This document shows positions 23,808 through 56,096 of a DNA stretch of 63,188 nucleotides, in pieces (positions within the stretch are counted from its first letter, which is position 1; each line of letters begins with the position of its first letter). The stretch spans positions 1 through 63,188 of the forward strand of contig JAKAKJ010000058.1 of NCBI GenBank assembly GCA_021824575.1. The letters are read 5' to 3'. The position numbers and the translations under genes were made by a program. This stretch comes from Chloroflexota bacterium. GTDB taxonomy: Bacteria > Chloroflexota > Anaerolineae > Anaerolineales > Villigracilaceae. Below the pieces are notes generated by a model. That model made no database searches. It saw only the letters and a program-made list of their open reading frames with translations, and had not been told where the DNA came from.

Positions 23808-23845
23808 AAAGACCTGACAGGTCTTCGAGACCTGTCAGGTCTTTT
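23808..23845 (+). terminator. double-palindrome repeat acting as terminator
   Basis: Perfect 16-base arms AAAGACCTGACAGGTC (23808-23823) and GACCTGTCAGGTCTTT (23829-23844) with a 5-base loop and following T residues. Each arm contains its own palindrome (GACCTG-A-CAGGTC). It lies 20 bases after the lipoprotein gene. The form suggests a repeat recruited as terminator. Confidence 0.75.
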
Positions 23846-54247: not shown

Positions 54248-55207
54248 TCACCTGTCGGTTGGATTGCCTTGTTTAGCGGACGTTTCAATTTGTAAGGTGC
54301 GACGCACAAATGATTCGATAATTTCAACGACTTCATCCTGGACTATAAACCACTTGATATTTGGATCGGATTCTTTGAACCAGTTGGCCTGCCTGCGGAC
54401 GAAAACCCGCGTGGCGCGTCGCATCTCGACTTTGGCCTGCTCGACGCTTAATTTGCCTTCGATCACGCTGACGCATTCGCGATACCCGATGGCCGACATC
54501 GTCGGCAGATCAGGAGAATAGCCTTTTGCCAGCAAACCTTTGACTTCATCCAGCAATCCATTTTCGAACATGGATTCGATTCGCGCATCAATCCGTGCAT
54601 AAAGCTCCGGCCGCGGACGCGTCAACCCGATGGTGATGAGATGATATGACGGTTCACCCTGCCCGCGCTGCTCGGAGAATTTTTTGCCAGTTGTCAAAAT
54701 GACTTCCAGTGCGCGGATCGTTCGACGGAAATTGCGCGCGTCAATTTTTTCTGCAGCGACAGGATCAAGTATGGCTAATCTTTCATGCAGCCACCCTTCT
54801 CCCCTCTCCCTTTTCACTTTTTCTAATTCCTCCCTCATCCTTGAATCGGGCTTTACTTCTGGCGGTTTCCATCCTTCAGTAACCGCGCGGACATATTGCC
54901 CTGTCCCGCCGACCAGCAACGGCAATTTGCCGCGTGCGTGAATATTCGCAATGGCTTCACGCGCTTTTTGTTGAAACACGGCCAGCGACAAAATTTCATC
55001 GGGATTGACGATGTCAATCAAATGATGCGGAACGCGTGCTTGTTCTGCGCGCGTTGGTTTCGCCGTGCCAATATCCATGCCGCGGTAGAAGAGGCGCGAA
55101 TCCGCCGAAACGATCTCACCGTTGATTCGTTCGGCAAGTTGTATAGCAATTTCTGTTTTGCCGACGGCGGTTGGGCCGACGAGGAGGATCAATGATGGTT
55201 TTGCCAT
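54248..55207 (-). CDS. miaA: tRNA dimethylallyltransferase MiaA
   Basis: A 319-residue enzyme that adds a dimethylallyl group to A37 of tRNAs. The P-loop is LLVGPTAVGKTE, followed by IVSADSRLFYRGMDIGTAKP, PHHLIDIVNPDE and VGGTGQYVRAVTEGW. The insertion domain and the C-terminal REEVRRATR-like helix are present (KVEMRRATRVFVRRQANWF). The ATG at 55207 follows GAGGAGAATCCCG. Its start lies 19 bases inside the end of the RAYT gene, so the two are in one transcript. Confidence 0.95.
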   Translation of the reverse strand: MAKPSLILLVGPTAVGKTEIAIQLAERINGEIVSADSRLFYRGMDIGTAKPTRAEQARVPHHLIDIVNPDEILSLAVFQQKAREAIANIHARGKLPLLVGGTGQYVRAVTEGWKPPEVKPDSRMREELEKVKRERGEGWLHERLAILDPVAAEKIDARNFRRTIRALEVILTTGKKFSEQRGQGEPSYHLITIGLTRPRPELYARIDARIESMFENGLLDEVKGLLAKGYSPDLPTMSAIGYRECVSVIEGKLSVEQAKVEMRRATRVFVRRQANWFKESDPNIKWFIVQDEVVEIIESFVRRTLQIETSAKQGNPTDR

Positions 55208-55752
55208 TCGGGATTCTCCTCGTCCTTGGCCCATTGGCTTGGGTTGCATTGGATATATTTATAAATTTGCTCAAGATCGTTTTGATCGCGAATGACATGT
55301 TCGTAATAATTTCTTTGCCAGACAGGAGTACCGCGTGTCTGGCGCATTTCGTTGATTTTGTACGTCACCGCGGATTTATACGCGCGAATAATAGTTGGTA
55401 ATGAACCCGTTGTTGGTTTTCCAAATTGTTCCGTAGGGGCACGGCGTCGCCGTGCCCCTACGATGGAATCATCATTTTCATTAACCCAAATAATTCCGTG
55501 AATATGATTCGGCATAACAATAAATTCATCTTCCCATAATTTCACATTTGACCGTAATTCCGCTGTCTTGAACCATTCGACGCGGGCAATTTCACCTAAC
55601 GCCGATAATCTCATTTCTTCGTTTTCAATTTTCCCAAACAAAAACTCGCGACCTGCCGTAACAATCGTTGTGAAATACGCACCGGCCTGAGCATAATCAT
55701 ATTCTCTCAACCGAATTGAACGCCGACAATAAACCTGCGAATCGAATTTCAT
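55189..55752 (-). CDS. REP-associated tyrosine transposase (RAYT, Y1/HUH family)
   Basis: A 187-residue transposase-like protein. The HUH motif is in IVMPNHIHGIIWV and the catalytic tyrosine in VWQRNYYEHVIRDQNDL, followed by the typical YIQCNPSQWAKDEENPEW. The N-terminus RRSIRLREYDYAQAGAYFTT is also standard for this group. Such proteins are single-copy domesticated relatives of IS200/IS605 transposases and process REP palindromes. A perfect 31-base palindrome (55432-55462) lies inside the coding region and encodes VGARRRRAPT. The gene is wedged between yraN and miaA with overlaps at both ends, with no flanking repeats of its own. Confidence 0.9.
   Translation of the reverse strand: MKFDSQVYCRRSIRLREYDYAQAGAYFTTIVTAGREFLFGKIENEEMRLSALGEIARVEWFKTAELRSNVKLWEDEFIVMPNHIHGIIWVNENDDSIVGARRRRAPTEQFGKPTTGSLPTIIRAYKSAVTYKINEMRQTRGTPVWQRNYYEHVIRDQNDLEQIYKYIQCNPSQWAKDEENPEWQNHH
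55432..55462. repeat. perfect 31-base REP-like palindrome inside the RAYT gene
   Basis: Arms of 15 bases, CGTAGGGGCACGGCG (55432-55446) and CGCCGTGCCCCTACG (55448-55462), around one central T. It is in frame and read as VGARRRRAPT. The GTAGGGGC...GCCCCTAC end pattern is that of dispersed mobile palindromes. No second copy is seen in the window. Confidence 0.9.
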
Positions 55753-56096
55753 ATTGCATTCTCAAAATGGACAAGCTCTGTCTTACCGTTCACTTCTTCC
55801 ACAGCAATCACATCAATTTGCCAGTGATCAATTTCGTTCTGCTGGGCGTAATGCTCGGCGCAGGAAAGCATGTGCTGTTGTTTGCGCGGCGTGACAGCGA
55901 TCTCCGGGGGGCCGAGGGAACGCGATGTGCGTGCTTTCACTTCGACAAAAATGGTGAAACCATCTTTCTGCGCGACCAAATCAATCTCGCCATACGGCGT
56001 GCGGACGTTACGCGCGATGATCTCATAACCTTTGGCTGATAAATAATCCGCCGCGGCTTGTTCGCCCCATTGACCAACCTTTTGATTATGGCTCAT
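55749..56096 (-). CDS. YraN/UPF0102 family protein
   Basis: A 115-residue protein of the YraN family, which has a restriction-endonuclease-like fold and no firm function. The signature is GQWGEQAAADYLSAKGYEII, followed by the core RTPYGEIDLVAQKDG and IFVEVKARTSRSLGPPE with the Asp, Glu and Lys of the nuclease-like site. The length is normal. It overlaps the glycosyltransferase gene by 11 bases at its start and the RAYT gene by 4 bases at its end, so all are in one operon. Confidence 0.92.
   Translation of the reverse strand: MSHNQKVGQWGEQAAADYLSAKGYEIIARNVRTPYGEIDLVAQKDGFTIFVEVKARTSRSLGPPEIAVTPRKQQHMLSCAEHYAQQNEIDHWQIDVIAVEEVNGKTELVHFENAI

Follow-up and report, generated by a model that had tools for sequence, protein, structure and literature searches.

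Why does a gene for a transposase of the RAYT (TnpAREP) type hold, within its own coding sequence, a perfect example of the palindromes (REPs) that such enzymes recognize? The question is raised by a gene on the minus strand at 55189..55752 of the window, by which is meant the whole stretch of 63,188 nt analyzed here. Its product, of 187 aa, is classed as a RAYT/TnpAREP-type HuH tyrosine transposase from its open reading frame, profile matches and a structural match, and its coding sequence contains a perfect 31-bp double-foot REP palindrome.

A double-foot REP in the loop of a group-4-like RAYT

The palindrome (GTAG...CTAC; 55432..55462, no strand assigned) is supported by an inverted-repeat search, by the family copies described below and by hairpin folding. 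Its arms, 55432-55446 and 55448-55462, are 15 nt long and 100% complementary around a 1-nt center, and the frame passes through them as VGARRRRAPT, residues 98-107, with codons 97-107 touched; repeat search and ORF agree on the perfect in-frame palindrome of the original prediction. About 6e-5 such repeats would be expected by chance in the window (63,188 x 4^-15, our own arithmetic, equal base frequencies). No second copy was found within the 63,188 nt, where GTAGGGGCACGGC with up to two mismatches matches its own two arms only. Folding of the palindrome strand predicts a hairpin of 14 bp, at z -6.35 for RNA and at z -4.88 for DNA, with 0/200 shuffles as stable in each case. Elsewhere in the window, at 23808-23844, lies a different perfect inverted repeat with 17-nt arms and a 3-nt center (AAAGACCTGACAGGTCT).

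The gene stands in a tight array with overlapping ends, as read from the ORF list. Upstream is what we take to be a YraN-like gene (55749..56096, minus strand), which overlaps the RAYT start by 4 bases, and downstream presumably a MiaA-like gene (54248..55249, minus strand), whose longest ORF overlaps the RAYT 3′ end. Both neighbors recur at an orthologous locus of the same genus (L021), where the YraN, MiaA and RAYT proteins are 85, 86 and 63% identical to those of the window. The YraN-like gene of that locus (within 1142-1501) itself carries a REP-like in-frame insert beside the RAYT; its alignment with the window YraN takes 120 columns for 112 query residues.

Among protein profiles, Pfam Y1_Tnp (PF01797) gives a weak match that passes (23.7 bits, gathering cut-off 23), and the NCBIfam equivalog NF047646 (REP_Tyr_transpos) gives 68.8 bits in two stretches, below its cut-off of 80, so the protein is not filed under that equivalog. 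A reading as a defense gene was set aside, PADLOC giving no match. The structure model (mean pLDDT 71, pTM 0.72) has as its nearest structure 4er8, the complex of a TnpAREP with a REP hairpin (first in the Foldseek ranking; Z 11.3, 129 residues, 3.0 Å). Across 12 alignment rows P81, H83 and H85 are invariant and N82 nearly so, at the HUH motif NHIH (residues 82-85; 55498..55509, minus strand); the WQ motif (W145-Q146; 55315..55320, minus strand) is conserved and served as a comparison anchor. Y166 of the YIQCNP motif (55255..55257, minus strand) is likewise invariant in these rows and is taken as catalytic from the published motif (PMC6006769, Table 1). Between the strand 83-90 and a 20-residue helix (118-137) the model has a low-confidence stretch, 94-110, with pLDDT <50 at 94-103 and 105-110, which is predicted to be disordered. 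The palindrome falls in this loop, between the HUH motif (H83/H85) and Y166, where alignment and model give a variable-length insertion between β3 and αC; this is where it had first been placed, in a stretch said to vary among relatives.

Such an arrangement has a precedent. According to Quentin et al. (2018; PMC6006769, main text), REPs of TnpAREP subclass 2.4 lie within the tnpAREP genes, in frame and generally between HuH and Y, a predominance that the authors call remarkable and unique, and each tnpAREP is paired with its own REP family. As the subclass (Bertels RAYT group 4) is described there, the window RAYT resembles it in its HuH-Y1 type, in the NH[IFV]H (here NHIH) and WQ motifs, in the variable β3-αC insertion, and in a REP that has a GTAG foot at both ends and lies in frame between HuH and Y. 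It differs in its Y motif, one letter off the consensus YIxNNP, and in that a search of the window gave no flanking REP copy. Established is a double-foot REP that lies in frame within the HUH-α3 loop of a group-4-like RAYT, and the gene is a further case of what is already published for subclass 2.4. The starting view, that REPs usually flank a RAYT gene and do not sit inside it, had overlooked this trait and was in this respect incomplete.

The REP family of the genome and in-gene copies among relatives

The genome to which the window belongs (3.64 Mb, 98 contigs) holds 38 copies of GTAGGGGCN{6,30}GCCCCTAC, a family also written GTAGGGGC...GCCCCTAC, vs 1 for the reversed pattern used as control. 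Dispersed GTAG-foot hairpin repeats of this kind are what characterizes a GTAG REP family, and they bear out the idea that the palindrome is REP-like and one of a dispersed family. The commonest stem in the genome, ACAGCG, is one pair from the ACGGCG of the window; the window arms (GTAGGGGCACGGC / GCCGTGCCCCTAC) recur at one further place, and the in-gene stem shares at least 5/6 letters with 19/37 dispersed own-genome copies. Three RAYTs were found in the genome by protein search, all three with a perfect palindrome at the same place. Their stems differ (ACGGCG, GGACGG and GCAGCA), each following GGGGC, and the coding-strand foot is altered in two of the three in-gene copies, to ATAG and GCAG instead of GTAG.

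Inspection of 16 of the 37 other copies (loci L002-L017) placed 3/16 clearly in frame inside a recognizable gene. These three REPs (L007, L016 and L017, around 1501) lie in MmgE/PrpD, LUD-domain (LutB-like) and MoeA genes and encode RGGVIPPL, VGADGHPPLP and VGAERRSAPT, respectively. GTAG REPs from Chloroflexi and other phyla, some in frame in ordinary genes, were reported in the 2013 survey 'GTAG- and CGTC-tagged palindromic DNA repeats in prokaryotes', which, unlike the present work, describes no REPs inside RAYT genes in the part considered here (PMC3733652). The palindromic elements of Rickettsia likewise lie in frame in protein genes, but there, as the same source presents them, the host gene is not a transposase that recognizes them (PMC3733652).

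The in-frame copies in other genes of this genome, together with the predicted disorder of the RAYT loop, speak for a simple alternative, an inert insertion, in which a REP from the genome pool entered a loop that permits it and is no more than tolerated there. Quentin et al. (2018; PMC6006769) suggest as much for subclass 2.4, where the main text treats the insertion region as peripheral, with perhaps little impact on activity. Inert insertion is nevertheless unlikely in our estimate: the three RAYTs of the genome carry different stems, each of the kind paired with similar helices elsewhere, and the pairing and helix data below count against it as well.

The first search for relatives covered 61 genomes, 30 with a RAYT match. 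At 140 loci, 121 genes had the whole HUH-WQ segment intact and 19 were skipped; 109 of the intact genes have an inverted repeat with arms of at least 8 nt in the HUH-WQ interval, 12 have none, and 102 have a readable stem. The 80 organism-named loci, the best-scoring 80 of at least 577 found, span many phyla (Chloroflexota, Nitrospirota, Acidobacteriota, Cyanobacteria, Planctomycetes, Bacteroidota, several proteobacterial groups and candidate phyla). Among the 77 of these best-scoring loci that have both motifs, arms of at least 9 nt occur in the HUH-to-WQ interval in 66, a fraction that may be high because of this ranking, before it in 3 and after it in 3, and in 63/77 genes an arm as long as the observed one came up in 0/60 codon shuffles. 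The second set was drawn from 350 genomes of the window's phylum, at least 93 with a RAYT match, and used 106 loci (30 + 80, less 4 overlapping earlier loci); 92 genes were intact, with arms of at least 8 nt in 60 and at least 9 nt in 50. An in-gene copy is not required, because 12/121 genes are without a repeat and only 50/92 have arms of at least 9 nt, and the relatives that lack one would suit an insertion that is only tolerated.

The loops also vary in content. Four cyanobacterial relatives with SIP-type helices (L114, L125, L133 and L145) have no clear in-gene palindrome. RAYTs with the helix PTLGQIVAYFKYQSTKE (L041, L052, L142 and others) can have in the loop two different REP-like palindromes, or the peptides of such palindromes (RGTVPVP...GGETPPL); these may be unlike REPs paired in inverted orientation. 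In L034, L066 and L120 the loop is enlarged by tandem REP-derived peptides (GRSPLP, GAETADK, VGAHGDAP), which suggests that REP remnants accumulate through repeated insertion, again as inert insertion would have it.

Pairing was assessed in 212 distinct genes by selecting, within the HUH-WQ interval, for GTAGGGGC and GCCCCTAC with one mismatch allowed in either. Head and tail were found there in 95/212 genes, and a head-and-tail pair elsewhere in the open frame in 11/212, even though the sequence outside the interval is about twice as long (89,742 nt vs 47,436 nt inside). The five inner pairs, unused in the selection, are paired in 463/475 cells (97.5%) of the 95 genes, whereas dealing the right arms among genes gave a mean of 0.376 and a maximum of 0.465; this counts against a copy that is only tolerated. 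The selected genes have 34 different cores, five of which occur in both frames: the head lies in phase 0 (VGA...) in 63 genes, in phase 1 (RG...) in 32 and in phase 2 in 0. Phase 2 would put TAG in frame, and the other two frames through GTAGGGGC are open. A looser parse gave head phase counts of 62, 40 and 0 in the first set and 33, 14 and 3 in the second, where some heads are misplaced. At L021, whose in-gene arms are 13 nt long (GTAGGGGCATAGC / GCTATGCCCCTAC) with a 35-nt loop between, two stem pairs differ from those of the window in both arms; L078 (61% identical by best search segment) shares the core but has GGGAC in place of GGGGC in both arms, and GGGAC is also found in its upstream repeat. 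Compensated changes of this kind fit selection on pairing, but replacement by another REP copy as well.

To judge from these comparisons, it is the DNA of the in-gene palindrome that is conserved, and not the peptide. The pattern is the reverse of the one that was to count against the original prediction (same residues, other codons, no palindrome): palindrome-bearing relatives keep the pairing and change residues and letters, in two frames. A palindrome arising by chance or from codon usage is ruled out by the 38 copies vs 1, the codon shuffles and the inner pairing; with the same REP family dispersed in the genome, we give this origin practically no weight.

Stem letters and the αC helix

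The helix of residues 118-137 (α3/αC; 55342..55401, minus strand) is proposed as the reader of the REP stem, from the predicted helix, from co-variation around K126 and from α3 of E. coli TnpAREP. The study of the E. coli enzyme (PMC8266576) is presumably that of Corneloup et al. 2021. In that enzyme, as the paper describes it, K82 on the DNA-binding helix α3 contacts the REP, and the authors propose α3 as the reader of other REP stems too (PMC8266576); we infer that the window helix corresponds to it because that helix lies between HUH and WQ. The TnpAREP groups 2 and 3 treated there share with the present case the GTAG foot, a hairpin read as single-stranded DNA and the co-evolution of enzyme and REP, but they form REPtrons with REPs around the gene, and in the part considered here their stem specificity was not obtained from in-gene pairs (PMC8266576).

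For the comparison, the stem was defined as the six letters after GTAGGGGC and the helix segment as a stretch of 20 residues with the conserved [FY]K of αC inside it. A first test on 100 genes (2 near-duplicates dropped), with partial correlations controlling for the N-domain and the C-terminal segment, gave an r of 0.43 between stem and αC distances (partial 0.41; 0/999 permutations above 0.07), with partial values of 0.037 for the N-domain (P 0.094) and 0.029 for the C-terminal segment (P 0.164). The pooled test of 142 genes from both sets (1 dropped for overlap, 2 near-duplicates), in which the HUH strand was added as a linkage control, gave 0.418 for αC, 0.014 for the HUH strand, 0.039 for the N-domain (P 0.062) and -0.001 for the C-terminal segment from WQ on. 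An independent head-and-tail parse of 89 genes gave 0.553, -0.007, 0.048 (P 0.068) and -0.055 in the same order. The αC values of the latter two tests were reached by 0/499 permutations each, and such distance-matrix permutation P values remove shared ancestry only in part. Stems were parsed by rule, the first parse leaving 7/109 and 10/60 repeat-bearing genes unread, L029 included, and misplacing at least two (L198, L257); the second, independent parse takes in L029. The second set is confined to the phylum of the window, to which part of the first belongs too. Taken together, the correlations suggest that the in-gene stem follows αC, rather than gene relatedness or the nearer HUH strand.

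Helices of the form GS[IL]PT-I-R mostly go with AC stems, RSPS-TIGAI-RG with GTAT and LPEI-R-FKTFSA with GGGTTT; exceptions are L029 (SIPV helix, GCAGCA) and L047 (RSPSRTVG helix, GAATAA). Across the 142 genes, the residues coupled most strongly to the stem lie at -10, -7, -6, -3, -2, +1 and +2 from K126 (0.18 to 0.37, with -6 at the top), followed by -11, -9 and +3 (0.13 to 0.16) and by +4 and +5 (about 0.09), whereas -8, -5, -4, -1, 0, +6, +7 and +8 stay below 0.07, against a null maximum of 0.08. This fits coupled residues that lie mainly on one side of the helix, where it has to be borne in mind that the buried positions also vary less. Among the periods tried, power was highest at 4 (P 0.039 at 3.6, position permutation), so that a helical periodicity in the coupling is suggestive only.

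Stem and helix would also agree if loop and α3 were copied as a block by recombination, in which case the agreement would express linkage and not recognition. The helix is indeed the segment that follows the palindrome on its 3′ side, and the HUH-strand residue nearest the loop reaches 0.094, just above the null maximum. However, the HUH strand lies closer to the palindrome than αC does (median 15.5 nt vs 26.5 nt) and is uncoupled as a whole, as is the segment from WQ on, and strongly coupled helix residues alternate with the uncoupled buried ones. Cassette exchange is, on this evidence, quite improbable, and linkage as the sole cause of the match is not supported by the HUH-strand control.

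The correspondence was also used for prediction. The second set was searched only after the training genes had been chosen, and parsed only after the segments had been defined. Of its 50 genes with a stem, 45 served as test genes; 1 was left out as a near-duplicate and 4 because the anchor or the stem was not usable. Prediction from the training gene nearest by αC gives 4.24/6 stem letters (12 exact), compared with 3.11 by the N-domain (7 exact), 2.78 by the HUH strand (6), 1.98 by the C-terminal segment (0) and 2.04 at random. αC outdoes the N-domain in 27 genes, with 10 losses and 8 ties (sign P 0.008), and the HUH strand by 29 to 5 with 11 ties (sign P 4e-5). For the nine held-out genes whose nearest helix is <70% identical there is no gain (αC 3.11 vs N-domain 3.44).

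In-gene stems match the dispersed REPs of their genomes as well. For 17 in-gene stems from 10 genomes, leaving out RAYT-internal and nearby flanking copies, the mean share of dispersed copies with at least 5/6 letters in common was 0.18 in the own genome vs 0.07 in other genomes (P 0.0008). The match is not general, because 5/17 stems have no dispersed own-genome copy (GGGGAG of G029, GCAAGA of G052, and those of G011, G010 and G006) and 4/17 have one. In G018 the in-gene stem GACCCG is that of both flanking copies and of several dispersed ones, and in G029 the in-gene stem GAGCCG is that of one flank and of many dispersed copies. A dispersed repeat that landed in the gene and was tolerated, one of the two origins first considered, has the dispersed family in its favor, but landing alone does not explain why a stem should match the gene's own α3 beyond relatedness as measured.

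The in-gene REP as candidate target of its own enzyme

The in-gene REP is most likely the cognate target of the enzyme, because its stem letters follow α3, also in the 45 later genes. That it is the cognate REP, read through α3, is well supported by these comparisons, and the fuller explanation, in which the palindrome is the RAYT's own REP, resident in the HUH-α3 loop, its stem read by α3 and kept matched to it, is in our judgement probable. It starts from the observed position, family and frames of the palindrome, from its pairing, and from its match to α3 and to the genomes' dispersed REPs. The enzyme would recognize REPs as folded single strands, by the GTAG foot and by the stem, with α3 reading the variable letters of the latter, and the same sequence inside the gene would then be a target of the gene's own product. 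The insert may be tolerated owing to the flexible loop and to the two open frames through GTAGGGGC. Palindromy is kept while the letters change in step with α3, and the simplest reason would be that the activity of the enzyme on REPs re-supplies or corrects the copy; a target carried inside the gene would, in addition, stay with its enzyme when the gene is duplicated or horizontally transferred. What we infer from these observations is the binding, the re-supply and whatever benefit there may be.

A regulatory role would be compatible with the cognate-REP explanation, the two not being exclusive. The RAYT may bind the hairpin in its mRNA, or in the single-stranded DNA of its gene, and so limit its own expression, or the hairpin may slow translation; the stable hairpin predicted in the message and the tight YraN-RAYT-MiaA array would suit such autoregulation. 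It is rather improbable, since part of the relatives have no palindrome and autoregulation alone calls for neither a REP foot nor stem letters that follow α3. It is also possible that the palindrome marks the gene for copying.

Within the open literature covered, no stem specificity derived from in-gene REPs was found, and the main text of the subclass 2.4 paper relates stems to no helix and counts no frames (PMC6006769). This being weak evidence of absence, the stem-helix code is the part for which no precedent was found there.

A wider generalization is offered tentatively, with somewhat less than even confidence: group-4 RAYT genes may be self-addressed, the internal palindrome being the enzyme's own target, one face of α3 spelling its stem, and the in-gene REP serving as the resident master copy by which the dispersed family and its enzyme stay matched during drift. 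If so, these genes would amount to a natural collection of proteins paired with their targets, and a code for the recognition of single-stranded hairpins could be read from it. In the literature covered, how RAYTs tell their own REPs apart has been addressed only by test-tube work, and only for two groups. Should in-gene REPs be cognate targets, each gene would supply both enzyme and target, the specificity of a large family would become predictable from sequence, and carriage of a REP inside the gene would be part of how the pair is matched, not a tolerated accident.
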